Assembly: GCA_009777845.1 (NCBI GenBank)
Contig: WRLD01000002.1
Coordinates: 1 to 64,000, forward strand
DNA: 64,000 bases
Source of the DNA: Defluviitaleaceae bacterium
GTDB lineage: Bacteria > Bacillota > Clostridia > Lachnospirales > WQUN01
Direction: 5' to 3'
Positions within the stretch are counted from its first letter, which is position 1; each line of letters opens with the position of its first letter. Positions 19,324 through 61,158 of the stretch are shown here, piece by piece. The notes under the pieces were generated by a model. It saw nothing but the letters and a program-made list of their open reading frames with translations, did not search any database and was not told the origin of the DNA. The position numbers were made by a program, and so were the translations under genes.

Positions 19324-19470
19324 CTGCTATGCCACGCTCCCTCTGTGCCTCTGTGTGAAAATCTTTTTGACAAATAATGAACGCAGGTAAAGCGTATAAC
19401 TTCCGCATCTTTAGTTAAAAGATTTTTTCACACAGAGGCACAGAGGCACAGAGGGCGAGAGGCACAGCAG
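19324..19470. repeat. B module copy 2
   Basis: Begins CTGCTATGCC and ends GGCACAGCAG, with inverted CTCTGTG-rich arms. The core contains GAACGCAGGTAAAGCGTATA. Relative to the neighbouring C module, this core lies in the orientation opposite to that in copies 5 and 6. Confidence 0.85.
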
Positions 19471-19525
19471 ACACGAAACGCGGATTAAAATATTGCGTTT
19501 GCTATGGGATATTTGCAGGTTTTTT

Positions 19526-19693
19526 GTAGGGGACGGATTTATCCGTCCCGAGGTACGCACGTTCTATAATTCGGGAAAGGTAACGTCCACCAAGCAGGCA
19601 GTAAGGTGTTGTCTAAGTGGTTTTCTTAGACAACACCGCACGCCGACCAACGCAGAGCGAGGTAATCTCGGGACGGATAAATCCGTCCCCTAC
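19526..19693. repeat. C module copy 1, with nested H hairpin
   Basis: A 168-bp version of the 111-bp C palindrome. Both ends are GTAGGGGACGGATTTATCC and its complement. The extra 57 bases include a hairpin, GGTGTTGTCTAAG paired with CTTAGACAACACC. Confidence 0.88.
19599..19631. repeat. Hairpin H1 nested in the C module
   Basis: GGTGTTGTCTAAG and CTTAGACAACACC form a 13-bp stem with a short loop; the same hairpin occurs at about 60990-61023, again inside a C module. It is absent from the 111-bp C copies. Confidence 0.75.
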
Positions 19694-19910
19694 AAAAACC
19701 GTTACCGTGTATTTTCCCACGAGCCAATCCGCCAAATCCGCGGAAATCCGTCAAATCCGTGTTCCGCTACCTTTAATTACATGGATAAAATTTCTATCCC
19801 ACTGCCGTCAATTTACATGGAAAGAATCCGCGAAAATCCGCCAAATCCGCGAAAATCCGCGTTCCATTTCTTTTTGCATAACGAATAAATCCGCACCCCA
19901 CGCCTTACAC

Positions 19911-20381
19911 CTATCTATTATTCACATTCTCAAAAAACAAATCATGGTTCTTCAACCGAAAATCCGCAAGCTCCGCATACCGCGTATCTGGAATACCCCA
20001 ACAGGTATACGGGTCAATGCTTATTCCGCCGCGCGGCGTAAACTTGCCCTGCACCTCAATAAATTTTGGCTTCATTAGCTCGCGCAGGTCTTTCAAAATT
20101 GTGTTTACGCAATTTTCGTGAAAATCGCCGTGGTTGCGGAAGCCGAATAGATACATTTTCAGCGATTTACTCTCCACCATTAGCTCGCTGGGAATGTAAT
20201 TTATATAAATCGCGGCGTAGTCTGGCTGGTTTGTAATCGGGCATAGGCTCGTAAACTCGGGGCAGTTAAATTTTACCATATAGTCAATGTCCATATGGCG
20301 GTTTTGGAACACCTCAAGTATTTCAGGGCAATATTGTGTGGGGTATTCGTTGTTTTTGCCTAAAAGCGATAAATTGTCCAT
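19911..20381 (-). CDS. queF: NADPH-dependent 7-cyano-7-deazaguanine reductase
   Basis: Reduces preQ0 to preQ1 in queuosine synthesis, a tRNA wobble modification. The 156-residue unimodular (YkvM-type) protein has the catalytic Cys in CPEFTSLCP followed by TNQPDYA, and the substrate motif [17 protein letters not shown]. The start at 20381 lies one base after the yhhQ stop (TAGcATG) with GGGGAAA upstream; a longer start at 20399 would overlap yhhQ. Together they suggest import of preQ0 or a similar precursor followed by reduction. No queC, queD or queE is nearby. Confidence 0.94.
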
Positions 20382-20382
20382 G

Positions 20383-21012
20383 CTAATTTCCCCTTTCATG
20401 GGTCGCGCCTATTTTGCAGTACCAAACGCCCAGGTACACCAAGGGCGTTTTCAGTAAATCCAACAGCATTTTAATACAAAATGTGGTGAGAATCATAGTG
20501 GCAAGCTCGCCTATTTCGTACACGCCAAAAAACGCAAGAAGCTGAAACATAGCGGTATCTACAAGCTGTGCGACAAAGGACGAGCCGTTGTTCCTTAGCC
20601 ACAAATGCTTTTCGCCTGTTTTTTTGCGTATTTGTTCAAATACGTAAATATTTAGGGTCTTGGAAACAAGAGATGTTACCATTCCTGCGACAATAATACG
20701 CGGCACAGAGCCAATAACAAGCCCGAACGCCTCTTGATGTGTCCAAAAATCCGCAGGGGGCAGAGCAATGGCAAACCGTATCAGCAAAACAGCCGTCACG
20801 TTTGCCGCAAAGCCGCCAAAAACAAGGGTTTGCGCCGCCTTTGGCCCCCATACCTCCGTCACCACATCTGTGATACAAAACGCAAGTAAAAACGCAAAAA
20901 CAGCCACGGGGAATACAAAACCAAAAATAGCCACGAGCTTAAACGCCAAAATATTTGCGACAACAAAGCATGTGGTAAATAGCATTGCCATTAACGTATA
21001 TTTTCTGTCCAT
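20383..21012 (-). CDS. yhhQ: Queuosine precursor transporter (YhhQ/VUT family)
   Basis: A 209-residue integral membrane protein with about six hydrophobic segments. [17 protein letters not shown] is the family's hallmark acidic segment, and [18 protein letters not shown] is typical of the later helices. YhhQ proteins take up preQ0/preQ1. The one-base spacing to queF supports a salvage role. It lies nine bases downstream of the tryptophanase-like gene, so no separate promoter or preQ1 riboswitch fits directly in front of it. Confidence 0.9.
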
Positions 21013-21021
21013 AGTAGCTCC

Positions 21022-22470
21022 TTATAGGCTCTCGCCGAAATCCGCGCGGAATTTTTTAATCAGCTTCTCGGGCCAGTTGCCGTCAGTTTTCAAGCGCCCG
21101 AAGAAAAAGCGAAGCACGCGCGGTTCTTCTTCAAAGATTAGGCCGCCGATTAGCTCTCGATTCTCATATAGCCATGCCAAGCGGTCGGCTACATATCGCA
21201 CCTGCGAAAGCGTAAACACGCGCTTGGGGAACGCAAGCCGCAACAGCTCCATATGCGCCAGTGTTTCACTGCCGTCTGGGTTGCGTTGCTCGGATAGCGT
21301 ACCGCGTTCCATGCCGCGTACGCCGCTCGCCAAGAAAAACGCCGCCGCCAACGCGCCCGCAGGGTATTGCTCCTGCGACAAATGACTACAAAATGCGCGC
21401 GCATCTATGTGACAGCCCAAGCCGCCAGGCGGCGTAACCACTGGCACGCCCTTTGTCAAAAGCTCGCGGCACAGCACCTCCACAAAAATAGGCGTTTGGC
21501 TAATAATATCTATATCCAGCGATTCCTGCAAGCCTATTGCCATGGCTTCCATTTCTCGCACGGACATACCGCCGTAGGTCAAAAAGCCCTCGTACAGCGG
21601 CACCATTTCGCGCATTTGCAAAAACATTTCCTTGTTGCTCGTTAAAATTCCGCCGCCTCGTGCCGCGCCTAGCTTACGCGCCGAAAAGTAAATTATATCC
21701 ATAAGCGAGCCTATTTCGCGCGTAATGTCAATAATTTCCTTGTCCTTAAATTCGCCGTCACGCTTTTTAATGAAATATAAATTGTCGGAAAGCAGGCTGG
21801 CATCGTACACTAGGGTAAGCCCCTCCGCGCGGCAAATTTTGGAAACCTCGCGCATGTTCTGCATAGAAACAGGCTGGCCGCCTACTAGGTTTGTCCCTGC
21901 TTCTATTCGCACAAAGCAAATATTTTCCCTGCCAAGCCGCGCGATTGCTTCGTTTAGCTTGTTTATATCCAAATTTCCCTTGAACGCAAGCTCGCTGTTT
22001 ATTTCCAAGCCCTCGTCAATAATAATTTCCTCTATTTGTCCGCCAAGCGTACAAATATGCGCCTTTGTCGTAGTAAAGTGGTAGTTCATAATCGCGGTCG
22101 AGCCGGGCGTAACCAGCAAGCGCGAAAGTATATGCTCGCACGCGCGCCCTTGGTGTGCAGGCAGGAAATATTCCATATTAAACATGTCCTGCAAAACGCT
22201 TTCGAGCCGATAAAAGGTTTCACTGCCTGCGTAGCTGTCGTCCGCCTGTAGCATAGCCGCGTACTGGTTCTCGCTCATTGCGTTCACGCCGCTGTCCGTT
22301 AGCATGTCGAGGAATATGTCCTTGTTGCGTAGCAAGAATGTGTTGTACCCTGCTTCCGCCATGCGCTTGGCGCGTTCCTCGATAGGAAGCAGGTACACGC
22401 GCTGTACCATGCGTACCTTGTGCATTTCTAGCGGAATGTTCTCACCTGAAAAAAATTTTACATCTGACAT
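21022..22470 (-). CDS. Tryptophanase/tyrosine phenol-lyase-like beta-eliminating lyase
   Basis: A 482-residue fold-type I PLP enzyme of the tryptophanase family. DMLTDSGVNAMSENQYAAML, AGSETFYRLE and LPAHQGRACEHIL match conserved blocks of tryptophan indole-lyase and tyrosine phenol-lyase. The Schiff-base segment reads YFSARKLGAARGGG instead of the usual SGKKD or SAKKD, so the Lys before the PLP Lys is Arg and the following Asp is Leu. Substrate is therefore uncertain. GGAG precedes ATG 22470. The gene overlaps the end of the HEPN gene by 13 bases and sits upstream of yhhQ-queF in an apparent operon. Confidence 0.82.
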   Translation of the reverse strand: MSDVKFFSGENIPLEMHKVRMVQRVYLLPIEERAKRMAEAGYNTFLLRNKDIFLDMLTDSGVNAMSENQYAAMLQADDSYAGSETFYRLESVLQDMFNMEYFLPAHQGRACEHILSRLLVTPGSTAIMNYHFTTTKAHICTLGGQIEEIIIDEGLEINSELAFKGNLDINKLNEAIARLGRENICFVRIEAGTNLVGGQPVSMQNMREVSKICRAEGLTLVYDASLLSDNLYFIKKRDGEFKDKEIIDITREIGSLMDIIYFSARKLGAARGGGILTSNKEMFLQMREMVPLYEGFLTYGGMSVREMEAMAIGLQESLDIDIISQTPIFVEVLCRELLTKGVPVVTPPGGLGCHIDARAFCSHLSQEQYPAGALAAAFFLASGVRGMERGTLSEQRNPDGSETLAHMELLRLAFPKRVFTLSQVRYVADRLAWLYENRELIGGLIFEEEPRVLRFFFGRLKTDGNWPEKLIKKFRADFGESL

Positions 22471-23708
22471 GGGGATTCTCCTTTATGTTTTGGATTAAGA
22501 ATATCTATAGGAAATCGTTTTTCGATTTCCCTTATTCTCGAATTTAAAGTATCCTCGATTATAGCTAAGCCTATATCATGCAAGAAACATAGTCTTAACA
22601 AGAACTCAATCTTCTTAAATGCCAAGCCATTTTCTTCATGGTTAAAATAATCTTCTGTCATAAATAAATGGGATATGAAATTTCTGTGTCTTACAGCTTT
22701 TTGGACAAATTTTTTTAGGTATGTTTGATTTTTTGATAACTTCACGTCATTTTCACGGGCAAAAATCTTTTGTGTGTAACAATTAAGGTTAATAGCAGAG
22801 AATATTTTTCTTTCAAGTGTCACTTTTCCTTTGGATTTTACCTTTTTCTTGTAGTGCGTGCCAATATACCCCTCCAAGCATTGAATAAGTATATTTACTC
22901 TCAATTCTTCAAACATATCACGTCCATCCAACGCCAACCTAAACATATTGAACACGTACGGATTTTTATTTTGCATAGCATACCATTTGTCATATGCACT
23001 AGAAAAGTCGTTAGAATTAGACAACTCCAAGTATTTCGGATATCCACGCTTAGAATGTGACGAAAACAGAATATCGTGATGCGTAGCGTATATAAATTCA
23101 GTATCTTCACCGCAAAAAACTCTCATTTCCTTTATTTGGGGAATGTGTCCTATCCACAAAGAATACATTTCGAGAAGGCTGTTAAAATGCTTTTTCATTT
23201 CACTAAAAGAGAGAGGGGCTGCAGACGTTATTTCAAAAATATCCCTGAGGGAGGTCTTAACGGTGATTGTGTCTGACATAATTTTATATTCGCGTACACC
23301 TGCACCAGCTCTGTATGTCCATACGGAGTTGTCGATTACACATGAAAGTTTATCAACCATACAAGTATCTTTATCGAGAATATGCACTCCTATGATTATA
23401 TTGCTCCACCAAATGCTTATTTTGTTCAAGGATAAAGATAAATGTACACGACAATCAAAAAGCGTAAACGGAATATTGTTGTTATCTATGCAATAAATGT
23501 ACTCGGATTTGCGTGCGTCCCCTAACCAAAAGTAGCGTGCAAAGCAAAGTCGAGATGTATCATCGAGATTTTCAATACTAACGTCAAAGCTGCTGGTTTT
23601 CAAGTCAATTTTGAAGTCAGCATCCAACCTGACATTCTTATTACTCACAATATTAAGAAGCGTACACCCTTGTATTTCTGTCAAATGGTTATATTCCGAT
23701 AAACTCAT
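22458..23708 (-). CDS. HEPN-domain protein, ApeA-like candidate defence RNase
   Basis: A 416-residue protein. The N-terminal half is beta-rich and holds no motif I can name. The C-terminal half is helical and contains RHRNFISH, in which Arg342 and His347 form the Rx4H motif of HEPN ribonucleases; LEGYIGTHY and FLLRLCFLHDIGL flank it in the pattern of ApeA-type HEPN proteins. The gene is visibly AT-rich: I count 16 G+C in the 60 bases 22681-22740, much lower than neighbours, suggesting recent transfer. GGAGTGAGGA precedes ATG 23708. It overlaps the tryptophanase-like gene by 13 bases. Family placement is from motif and layout only. Confidence 0.65.
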   Translation of the reverse strand: MSLSEYNHLTEIQGCTLLNIVSNKNVRLDADFKIDLKTSSFDVSIENLDDTSRLCFARYFWLGDARKSEYIYCIDNNNIPFTLFDCRVHLSLSLNKISIWWSNIIIGVHILDKDTCMVDKLSCVIDNSVWTYRAGAGVREYKIMSDTITVKTSLRDIFEITSAAPLSFSEMKKHFNSLLEMYSLWIGHIPQIKEMRVFCGEDTEFIYATHHDILFSSHSKRGYPKYLELSNSNDFSSAYDKWYAMQNKNPYVFNMFRLALDGRDMFEELRVNILIQCLEGYIGTHYKKKVKSKGKVTLERKIFSAINLNCYTQKIFARENDVKLSKNQTYLKKFVQKAVRHRNFISHLFMTEDYFNHEENGLAFKKIEFLLRLCFLHDIGLAIIEDTLNSRIREIEKRFPIDILNPKHKGESPCQM

Positions 23709-23787: not shown

Positions 23788-24804
23788 TCACACTTGTAAC
23801 TTCAAAAACTCATCATAATCACTCATAAAAAGCCTATCCTGTATTACCCTATACTTCTCAAATTCATTCTCGGCGTGTGCTTTTGCGATTTCGGCAGTGA
23901 TTGTTCCCAAATTGTCTAAAATTTCGTACTTGCTCGCTTTCAGTACCATGTCCAGTTGCTCCGCCCAGTCGGACATTGCCATAGGTATTTTACGCCTTGC
24001 CATGCCCTCTGCCAAGTCTAAATATCCCGAAACAATCAATTCTAGCTCGTGCATTTCTTGCTCCGTTAAATAATTCTTAGCGACAGAAACATCACTCTTT
24101 ACGATTTTTCCCTCAGGGGCTTTTTCCCATGTGCTAAGCCCCATGTGCTTCTTAGTGCTATCCGCACGCTTGTAAATCAGCTCCGCCGCCGTATGCTGAT
24201 GCACAGCCCAATGCAGCTTATTTTGAACCCTTGCGAAAAAACGCTTTGTGGTTTCGGCAGATTTATCATAATCCATTGAGGTCGCATAAATGTCAGTAAT
24301 TTTCTGATAAAAACGCCGCTCCGACAAGCGAATTTCACGAATTTCTTCGAGCAGGCGTTCAAAATAATCGTCGTCTAGGAACATGCCGTTTTCCATGCGC
24401 TTTTTGTCTACCAAATAGCCGCGCAACGCAAACTCACGCAAAACAATAGTAGCCCAACGCCTAAATTCGGTCGCTTTAGCGGAATTAACGCGATAACCAA
24501 CGGCAATAATCATATCAAGATTATAATGCTTAATGCTACGATTGACCGAACGGCTGCCCTCGGATTGAACTACTAAAAATTCCTTAGTAGTTGCCATTTC
24601 GTCTATTTCTGATTCGTCCACTATTTTTTTTATGTGGGTAATAACATTTTCTGTGCTTGTGCCAAAAAGCCTTGCTATCAGCTTTTGCGAGAGCCAGACC
24701 ATGCCGTCCTGTACCCGCACCTCTATGCCGTCGCCGCCCGTTTGGTATGCGAATGTCAAAAATTCGGCAGTCGTATTGCGAATTATTATTTCCTTTTTAC
24801 TCAT
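23788..24804 (-). CDS. RhuM family protein
   Basis: A 338-residue protein with the RhuM pattern: VRVQDGMVWLSQKLIARLFG at the N-terminus, EGSRSVNRSIKHYNLDMIIA, then GYRVNSAKATEFRRWA, and a long helical C-terminal half. RhuM proteins are found on genomic islands and near defence or mobile genes; their biochemical function is unclear. The start at 24804 is inside the rimO stop region, giving an 8-base ATGAGTAA overlap; a start 19 codons upstream would overlap rimO more. Its presence at the end of a housekeeping operon next to a HEPN gene hints at an inserted defence pair. Confidence 0.85.
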   Translation of the reverse strand: MSKKEIIIRNTTAEFLTFAYQTGGDGIEVRVQDGMVWLSQKLIARLFGTSTENVITHIKKIVDESEIDEMATTKEFLVVQSEGSRSVNRSIKHYNLDMIIAVGYRVNSAKATEFRRWATIVLREFALRGYLVDKKRMENGMFLDDDYFERLLEEIREIRLSERRFYQKITDIYATSMDYDKSAETTKRFFARVQNKLHWAVHQHTAAELIYKRADSTKKHMGLSTWEKAPEGKIVKSDVSVAKNYLTEQEMHELELIVSGYLDLAEGMARRKIPMAMSDWAEQLDMVLKASKYEILDNLGTITAEIAKAHAENEFEKYRVIQDRLFMSDYDEFLKLQV

Positions 24805-26095
24805 GCAAGCCCACACACCCCACCAAATCATAATCCACAGTATCACTAATCCGTACATCACAAATCTGCCCCACAGCCAAAGGCACTACCGAGGAAAAGC
24901 TAACGACCGCGTCCGCCTCGTAGGCATCATACTGTGTACGCCCTATATACTCACCCTGCACACAGCCGTCTACGATTACGGACAAAGTCTTACCCACGTA
25001 TTTGCGTTGCTTTTTGAAATGGATTTTTTGCTGTAGCTGCATTATTTTATTTAGGCGTTTTTGCTTTATTTCGTCACTTATTTGGTCGGGCATAAGCGCG
25101 GCGCGTGTTCCCTCCTCCTGCGAATACGGAAACGCGCCCATTCTGTCAAATTTCATTTCCTGTACAAAGTCGCACAGATTCTTGAAATCCTCCGCTGTTT
25201 CGCCTGGGAAGCCCACCATTACGGTGGTGCGAAGGGCTATGCCTGGCACTCTGTCGCGTAGCACGCGTATTAGCTGTTCCAGCTCGCGCCTTGCGCCCCT
25301 GCGCCCCATGCGGGAAAGAACGCTCGCCTCGCTATGCTGAATGGGCATGTCGAGGTATTTACACATTTGCGGAATTTCCGCCAACGCACTTATCAACGAG
25401 GGCGTTATATGCTCGGGGTATGCGTACATTAGGCGAATCCACTTCGCGCCAGAGGTGGCGGCAATGTCACGCAAAAGCTGTGGCAGATTTTCGTACCGTG
25501 CCGTGTCCTGTGCTACTAGAACAAGCTCGACCGCGCCTGCTTCTACCAGCAAGCGGCACTCGTCCAAGATTTCCTGCGAAGGGCGCGCCTTATACGCGCC
25601 GCGAATTGCGGGGATTGTGCAATAGGCGCAATGGTTGTCACAGCCGTCAGAAATTTTCACGTACGCTATATGCGGCACGTCCGAATCGTCACGCGCCATC
25701 AAACGCGGCAAGCCCACGTTTTTTGCCGTATTTTCGGGCTTGCCGACCAATCGCTCTATAATAGCCGCTATTTTTTCATATTCGCCCACGCCCACAAATG
25801 CGTCAGCCTCGGGAATGGTTTCCTTTATTTCGTCCTTGTAGCGTTCCGCCATACAGCCCACAATTACCAAGGCGCGGCAAGCACCGCTTTTTTTGTACTC
25901 GGCTAATTCAAAAATAGTGTCTATGCTTTCCTGTACCGCGTCTTTAATAAAGCCGCATGTATTTATAATAATTACAGCGGCTTGCTCTGGGTTGTTTATT
26001 ACCTCGTAGCCCTTGGCACGCAACGCGCCGACCATTGTTTCGCCGTCTACACGGTTTTTGTCACAGCCCAAGGAAAGTAAATAAATTTTAGCCAT
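24797..26095 (-). CDS. rimO: Ribosomal protein S12 methylthiotransferase
   Basis: A radical SAM enzyme that methylthiolates the conserved Asp of ribosomal protein S12. The 432-residue length is normal. The N-terminal UPF0004 domain has SLGCDKNRVDGE, INTCGF and VGCMAER, supplying the auxiliary-cluster cysteines; the radical SAM motif is CDNHCAYC; a C-terminal TRAM domain is present. SLGCDKNRVD distinguishes RimO from MiaB. It overlaps folD by eight bases (ATGGCTAA) and rhuM by eight bases. Confidence 0.94.
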   Translation of the reverse strand: MAKIYLLSLGCDKNRVDGETMVGALRAKGYEVINNPEQAAVIIINTCGFIKDAVQESIDTIFELAEYKKSGACRALVIVGCMAERYKDEIKETIPEADAFVGVGEYEKIAAIIERLVGKPENTAKNVGLPRLMARDDSDVPHIAYVKISDGCDNHCAYCTIPAIRGAYKARPSQEILDECRLLVEAGAVELVLVAQDTARYENLPQLLRDIAATSGAKWIRLMYAYPEHITPSLISALAEIPQMCKYLDMPIQHSEASVLSRMGRRGARRELEQLIRVLRDRVPGIALRTTVMVGFPGETAEDFKNLCDFVQEMKFDRMGAFPYSQEEGTRAALMPDQISDEIKQKRLNKIMQLQQKIHFKKQRKYVGKTLSVIVDGCVQGEYIGRTQYDAYEADAVVSFSSVVPLAVGQICDVRISDTVDYDLVGCVGLHE

Positions 26096-29606: not shown

Positions 29607-29806
29607 CTAACGAAATGCGGATTTAAAAGAAATGGAACGCGGATTTTCGCGGATTTGGCGGATTTTCGCGGATTTTTTCCGTGTGAATTGACGGTAGTGG
29701 GATAGAAGTTTTATCCATGTAAATTAAAGGTAGTGGAACACGGATTTGGCGGATTTTCGCGGATTCGGCGGATTGGCTCGTGGGAAAATACACGGTAACG
29801 GTTTTT

Positions 29807-29917
29807 GTAGGGGACGGATTTATCCGTCCCGAGATTACCTCGCTCTGCGTTAATGCACGTTACCCGCCCCAAATTGACGAACGTGCGTACCTCGGGACGG
29901 ATAAATCCGTCCCCTAC
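29807..29917. repeat. C module copy 2
   Basis: A 111-bp palindrome with GTAGGGGACGGATTTATCC ends. In the A-C-B reading the core places CGCTCTGCGTT first, the same orientation as in the 168-bp copies. Confidence 0.88.
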
Positions 29918-29971
29918 AAAAAACCTGCAAATTCCCACAACAACCGCAATATTTAAATCCGCGTTCCGTGT

Positions 29972-30135
29972 CTGCTGTGCCACGTTCCCTCTGCTTTGTG
30001 CCTCTGTGCGAATTACTGTGTGAAAAAATCTTTTAACTGAGGAATGGAAGTTATACGCTTTACCTACGTTCATTATTTGTCAAAAAGATTTTTCACACAG
30101 AGGCACAGAGGCACAGAGGGCGAGAGGCACAGCAG
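29972..30135. repeat. B module copy 3
   Basis: Begins CTGCTGTGCC and ends GGCACAGCAG. The core reads TATACGCTTTACCTACGTTC on the plus strand, the reverse of copies 5 and 6, although the outer flanks run the same way. Confidence 0.85.
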
Positions 30136-30841: not shown

Positions 30842-31708
30842 ATGTTAGATACAAGGGCTAGAAACAAAGGAAAAAAACTTGAATATACATTCAAAAGCGA
30901 CGTGTTGTTCAAAATGCTGTTTGTAAAGCACCCTCATTTGCTTAAAAGACTGGTCGCCGTATTGCTCACAATTCCAGTCGATACAATCAGCGAATTTATT
31001 ATCACCAATACCGACATGCCGCCCGAGGAAATAGGCAAAAAATTCTGTCGGCTTGATATAAATATGATTGTTGACGGAAAAAGGGTAAACCTTGAAATCC
31101 AGGTCGAGGACGAGGGCAATTACCCCGAGCGCGCATTGTTCCATTTCGCAAGGATTTATTCGTCCGCCTTGCCCGCTGGTGATAACTATTCATTGCTTCC
31201 GCGTACAATAATAATTAGCATACTCGATTTTTCACTGTTTGCTTGCGAGGACGTTCATTCGGAGTTTCAAGTGCTTGAGGTCAACCGCCATACACCGCTT
31301 ACCGACAAGCTGAGCTTGCATTTTTTCGAGCTGCCAAAAATGCCGGAGCTTAGCTCCGTAAATCTCAACAGCGAAAAGGATTTATGGCTTGCCTTATTTA
31401 ACGCCGAAACGGAAGAAGAACTCGAAGAATTATCAAAAACAGGAGGTGCGGTAATGAGTGAAGCAGTGCAAGCGTACCACGGTATTACTGACACAGAGGA
31501 ATTTAGAAATCGGGAATGGATGAGGGTAAAAATTCAGCATGATACGGCGCAGGCTTTATATAACGCCACACGAAAGGGCGTGGAAGCAATGCTATTGTCT
31601 GCTATAAAGAACAATGTCCCTGCCGAGGCTATTGAGGCTATGCGTAAAAGCTCGGGAATCATCACCGAGGCTCGGCTTGCCGAATTGCAGGAGCAGGTGC
31701 AGGGATAA
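30842..31708 (+). CDS. Rpn family recombination-promoting nuclease/PD-(D/E)XK transposase-like protein
   Basis: A 288-residue protein of the PDDEXK-2 (Rpn/YhgA-like) family. The N-terminal FKSDVLFKMLF, the nuclease core with Asp in CRLDINMIV followed by VNLEIQVED, and ALFHFARIYSSAL are typical; the core matches D-x(n)-ExQ rather than ExK. A helical, charged C-terminal region (SEKDLWLALFNAETEEELEE-like, here in parts) follows. Such proteins spread as multicopy genes and can promote recA-independent recombination. ATG 30842 is preceded by AGGGGGGCG. The 3' end overlaps the convergent manA gene by 47 bases. Confidence 0.85.
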   Translation: MLDTRARNKGKKLEYTFKSDVLFKMLFVKHPHLLKRLVAVLLTIPVDTISEFIITNTDMPPEEIGKKFCRLDINMIVDGKRVNLEIQVEDEGNYPERALFHFARIYSSALPAGDNYSLLPRTIIISILDFSLFACEDVHSEFQVLEVNRHTPLTDKLSLHFFELPKMPELSSVNLNSEKDLWLALFNAETEEELEELSKTGGAVMSEAVQAYHGITDTEEFRNREWMRVKIQHDTAQALYNATRKGVEAMLLSAIKNNVPAEAIEAMRKSSGIITEARLAELQEQVQG

Positions 31709-60746: not shown

Positions 60747-60935
60747 TTATTTTTTAAGGGCATGGAACGCGGATTTCCGCGGATTTGGCGGATTTTCGCG
60801 GATTTTTTCCGTGTAAATTGACGGCAGTGGAATACAGATTTTATCCATGTAATTAGAGGTAATGGGACACGGATTTGACGGATTTTCGCGGATTTGGCGG
60901 ATTGGCTCGTGGGAAAATACACGGTAACGGTTTTT

Positions 60936-61103
60936 GTAGGGGGCGGATTTATCCGCCCCGAGGTTAGCACGCTCTGCGTTGGTCGGCGTGCGGTGTTGTC
61001 TAAGAAAACCGCTTAGACAACACCTTACTGCCTGCTTAATGGACGTTACCTGCCCCGAATTATAGAACGTGCGTACCTCGGGACGGATAAATCCGTCCCC
61101 TAC
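60936..61103. repeat. C module copy 9, with nested H hairpin
   Basis: A 168-bp version; the left arm has GTAGGGGGCGGATTTATCC, so the usual GACGG is GGCGG with a matching change in the inverted part. The H hairpin is at about 60990-61023. Confidence 0.87.
60990..61023. repeat. Hairpin H2 nested in the C module
   Basis: GGTGTTGTCTAAG and CTTAGACAACACC stem with a short loop, the second copy of the hairpin at 19599-19631. Confidence 0.75.
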
Positions 61104-61158
61104 AAAAACCTTGCAAATCCCCCACAACAAACGCAATGTTTAAACCTGCGTTTCGTGT

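Follow-up and report, generated by a model that had tools for sequence, protein, structure and literature searches.

Known ApeA systems and the locus under study

ApeA is an antiphage system that consists of a single protein, in which an N-terminal ApeA_NTD1 domain (Pfam PF18862) is followed by a C-terminal HEPN_Apea domain (PF18739); the system is listed in PADLOC as Cas13-ApeA and belongs to the ApeA/BMEI1217 family of Anantharaman et al. 2013. The ApeA/BMEI1217 HEPN family and ApeA-NTD1 are described in PMC3710099, where some of the family's HEPN proteins are embedded in R-M operons and RhuM-like genes adjoin PrrC-type HEPN systems. ApeA is included among the antiphage systems listed in PMC7699616 and PMC13405049, and HEPN domains are homodimeric RNases (PMC13405049).

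The gene analyzed here occupies positions 22458-23708 on the reverse strand of the window, the whole 64-kb stretch of DNA examined. Its product shares with ApeA the single-protein organization, the order of NTD1 and C-terminal HEPN, and two motifs, Q-x2-E in helix 1 of the HEPN domain and R-x4-H. It departs from ApeA in being just 13-19% identical to ten comparator proteins, in a motif context of RHRNFISH where members mostly carry xTRNYxTH, and in a shorter distance from the conserved E to the conserved R than most members have. We assign the product to the ApeA/BMEI1217 HEPN family with ApeA-NTD1, as a divergent member, with a probability of roughly 0.87. It is a divergent but otherwise ordinary and rare member of a family already known since 2013/2020, adding a deep branch to that family and opening no long-standing question.

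Domain architecture and family assignment

The reading frame is intact, encoding 416 amino acids with no internal stop, and a plausible ribosome-binding site is present. In a Pfam protein scan, ApeA_NTD1 matched residues 44-127 with 24.3 bits (E 2.6e-5; cut-off 25.5) and HEPN_Apea matched residues 274-381 with 23.7 bits (E 7.1e-5; cut-off 24.4), both about 1 bit under the curated cut-offs and in the domain order typical of ApeA. HEPN_Apea exceeded its cut-off in a six-frame search of the genome (26.9 bits) and in a homologue of 45% identity (35.1 bits), which additionally matched PADLOC Cas13-ApeA with 35.8 bits; ApeA_NTD1 was not detected by Pfam in this homologue. The NCBIfam scan of the window protein gave no match, and PADLOC returned only a weak match to PDC-S58, a category of ApeA-like single-gene candidates. 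Its profile PDLC05048 covered residues 232-296 of the window protein, weakly and partially, with 15.2 bits, compared with 31 bits for the homologue and 126 and 190 bits for two bona fide ApeA comparators.

Ten ApeA proteins served as comparators: six come from plasmids, and four, which score above the ApeA_NTD1 cut-off, come from the same order. They were aligned separately from the window protein and its homologue. Profile-profile comparison of this pair with the ten proteins gave a probability of 97.4% and an E-value of 9.7e-12 over residues 68-385, spanning both domains. The N-terminal domain is recognized by a thin margin, combining the 24.3 bits obtained against 25.5 with profile-profile coverage that begins at residue 68. 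The first-pass annotation had likened the protein layout to that of ApeA-type effectors and proposed a profile search against ApeA and HEPN families; with both domains matched in such a search, the likeness is upheld. Surveys of antiphage HEPN proteins undercount, because Pfam cut-offs just miss divergent members of this kind.

Residues 340-347 read RHRNFISH, with R342 and H347 as the R and H of the motif; the codons of R342-N-F-I-S-H347 lie at 22668-22685 on the reverse strand, counted from the ORF start at 23708. A bare R-x4-H is no evidence, because 52% of composition shuffles of the protein contain one and a second copy occurs at R372; it is the conservation of the motif that counts. In the joint alignment (n=12), the only invariant positions are L28, L83, Q276, E279, R342 and H347. 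Q276 and E279 are the Q-x2-E pair of HEPN helix 1 (Q276-C-L-E279, codons 22872-22883 on the reverse strand; family motif QALE/QGLE), and R342 and H347 form the R-x4-H, each pair being kept in 12 of 12 ApeA proteins. The ApeA-type assignment is therefore drawn from this conservation pattern and not from the bare motif, and the earlier reading of RHRNFISH near the C-terminus as a HEPN motif holds. The conserved E and R are separated by 63 residues in the window protein, by 80-109 in most members and by 51 and 64 in two others.

AlphaFold2 models reached a mean pLDDT of 33.4 with the alignment of window protein and homologue, and 33.7 for the homologue alone, and are not usable. No ApeA chain was found in the PDB by sequence, and the PDB profile matches, to antibody chains and a repeat protein, were discarded as noise.

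Relatives and distribution

The search for relatives covered three overlapping genome sets, from the order (392 genomes), the class (391) and the phylum (399). It extended to 16 genomes from the family of the homologue, and to the GTDB contig collection, IMG/VR, phages and plasmids. The distribution is sporadic. These searches yielded one full-length relative, which is also the only other one in the set of 392 from the order: a protein of some 469 amino acids from a Defluviitaleaceae MAG (WRAX01000011.1; locus L005, 5986-7395), 45% identical over its full length. It carries the same HRNFISHLF motif as the window protein, and its stretch from the conserved E to the conserved R is 46 residues longer. 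When collections were scanned with the window protein or with the two-sequence alignment, one locus was recovered, again in this MAG, and the sweeps of class and phylum with the two-sequence profile returned the window genome only. None of 37 other genomes in the family of the window genome has the gene; tblastn of phages and plasmids with the window protein gave no relatives, nor did a viral scan queried by two comparator ApeA proteins.

A weak match in genome G143 (E 2e-4) was not taken for a relative; it covers only residues 74-180 and lies in a frame of 1307 residues. A congener in the same genus, G022, encodes a different ApeA_NTD1 protein (66.3 bits; locus L012, 973-3095), adjoining what appear by eye to be a nucleotidyltransferase and small HEPN pair.

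Insertion site and base composition

The base composition of the gene is foreign to its surroundings. The count of 16 G+C letters in 60 at 22681-22740, noted in the first-pass annotation, is correct, and no other 1251-bp stretch of the window is as poor in G+C as the ORF, at 34.9% GC (GC3 36%) against about 51% for the neighbouring tryptophanase, rimO, folD and ftsK. Low G+C had been read there as a sign of transfer, a reading backed by this composition and by the absence of the gene from the rest of the family.

The native flank on one side is a tryptophanase-like beta-eliminating lyase (21022-22470, reverse strand), kept at 83-88% identity in eight congeners, none of which holds the HEPN gene; in two of the eight it is cut short by the end of a contig. 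The gene upstream of tryptophanase is one beginning MGIIFEKYR in five congeners, which we take by eye to be a putative GH5-like glycosidase, and another gene in a sixth; in those congeners that were displayed, the match to the window starts with the tryptophanase ATG or shortly ahead of it. The native flank on the other side is rimO (24797-26095, reverse strand). In congeners the order ftsK-folD-rimO continues into a pgsA-like gene, whereas in the window genome rimO is followed directly by a RhuM-family gene and then the HEPN gene, with the pgsA-like gene placed on a different contig. The RhuM gene (23788-24804, reverse strand; PF13310; likely start ATG at 24804) is absent from that place in congeners. 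Because the congeners differ on both flanks, in the upstream neighbour of tryptophanase and in the gene after rimO, the RhuM and HEPN genes occupy a junction that separates two blocks of native genes. Apart from RhuM, the surroundings consist of housekeeping genes and do not form a defence island; the insert marks a point at which genes of defence type came to lie among core genes.

At the junction (22458-22482, reverse strand), the HEPN ORF ends in codons for KGESPCQM that run across the ribosome-binding site (AAAGGAG) and opening codons of tryptophanase, the pattern to be expected when a frame of foreign origin is set directly against a native gene. The two genes overlap by 13 bp, which confirms one half of the earlier description "fused by overlap"; a gene fusion is ruled out by the two overlapping ORFs and by the same tryptophanase start in congeners, and the proteins are separate. 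Contrary to the earlier proposal, the HEPN gene does not head the gene run, since RhuM, rimO, folD and ftsK precede it on the same strand. A recent horizontal transfer probably brought the HEPN gene, with or next to RhuM, to its position between rimO and the tryptophanase-like gene. An assembly product of the MAG is possible in principle, and is less likely because genes are tightly packed on both sides of the junction.

Alternative explanations

The run of genes does lead to yhhQ (TIGR00697) and queF (TIGR03139), which follow tryptophanase as the second and third genes downstream of HEPN, as the first-pass annotation observed; tryptophanase, yhhQ and queF form one run at 19911-22470. The shared strand, the 13-bp overlap and this proximity could suggest that the HEPN protein is tied functionally to these genes, for instance as an RNase with queuosine tRNAs as its substrates. 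The order is not conserved, however: HEPN is absent in all congeners holding tryptophanase, which have other genes upstream of it, and tblastn gave no match to yhhQ or queF within the approximately 1.5 kb read downstream of it. In addition, the HEPN homologue is a lone gene between speE-like and spoVT-like genes, and the HEPN frame runs into the tryptophanase leader as an insertion would. A functional link is hardly credible on these grounds, and the HEPN gene most likely came to lie next to tRNA-modification genes by chance. The RhuM gene is a candidate partner, regulator or second toxin, lying 79 bp upstream on the same strand in the same non-native junction and belonging to a PADLOC candidate single-gene defence family (PDC-S05), and RhuM-like genes beside PrrC-type HEPN systems offer a precedent (PMC3710099). 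Annotation or ORF inspection found no RhuM beside the near homologue, the plasmid ApeA genes or the relatives' ApeA genes, which argues against a general RhuM-ApeA pair, and the GC of RhuM, 43% against 35% for HEPN, suggests that the two may have separate histories. It is thus improbable that the ApeA-type protein works in a two-gene unit with RhuM instead of alone. We regard it as improbable, too, that a divergent ApeA lineage, marked by RHRNFISH and so far represented in two Clostridia genomes, is paired here with RhuM and differs in target or trigger from characterized ApeA.

A HEPN protein devoid of RNase activity, or a decaying remnant, would be consistent with the short inter-helix segment of 63 residues and with the Pfam scores under cut-off. 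Set against these are the intact ORF with its plausible ribosome-binding site and the four conserved polar residues, all kept across a divergence that leaves 45% identity to the homologue, and either of these readings is unlikely.

Proposed mode of action

For a divergent, intact ApeA-type protein, RNase activity, dimerization and a phage trigger may be expected from the family. The NTD1 domain would sense something produced in the course of phage infection. Pairing of two C-terminal HEPN domains would bring their R342/H347 motifs together into an RNase site that needs no metal, and the enzyme, once activated, would cut RNA and stop the growth of the infected cell, as in abortive infection. 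Antiphage action by RNA cleavage is the probable role of the protein, while a trigger of the kind reported for ApeA, a deoxydinucleotide, is a tentative suggestion.

Repeats around the locus

A repeat of about 380-500 bp occurs at 19358-19874 (forward), at 29625-30092 (inverted) and also at 60762-61124, containing GCGGATTT short-repeat stretches and GGGACGGAT..ATCCGTCCC palindromes. The inverted pair flanks the queF-to-ftsK block, with complementarity up to 97%, and a PD-(D/E)XK family transposase-like gene (PF12784) lies just past the right-hand copy, at 30842-31708. A 381-base repeat query gave 209 matches, often partial, in the 2.98-Mb genome, an unusually abundant interspersed repeat.
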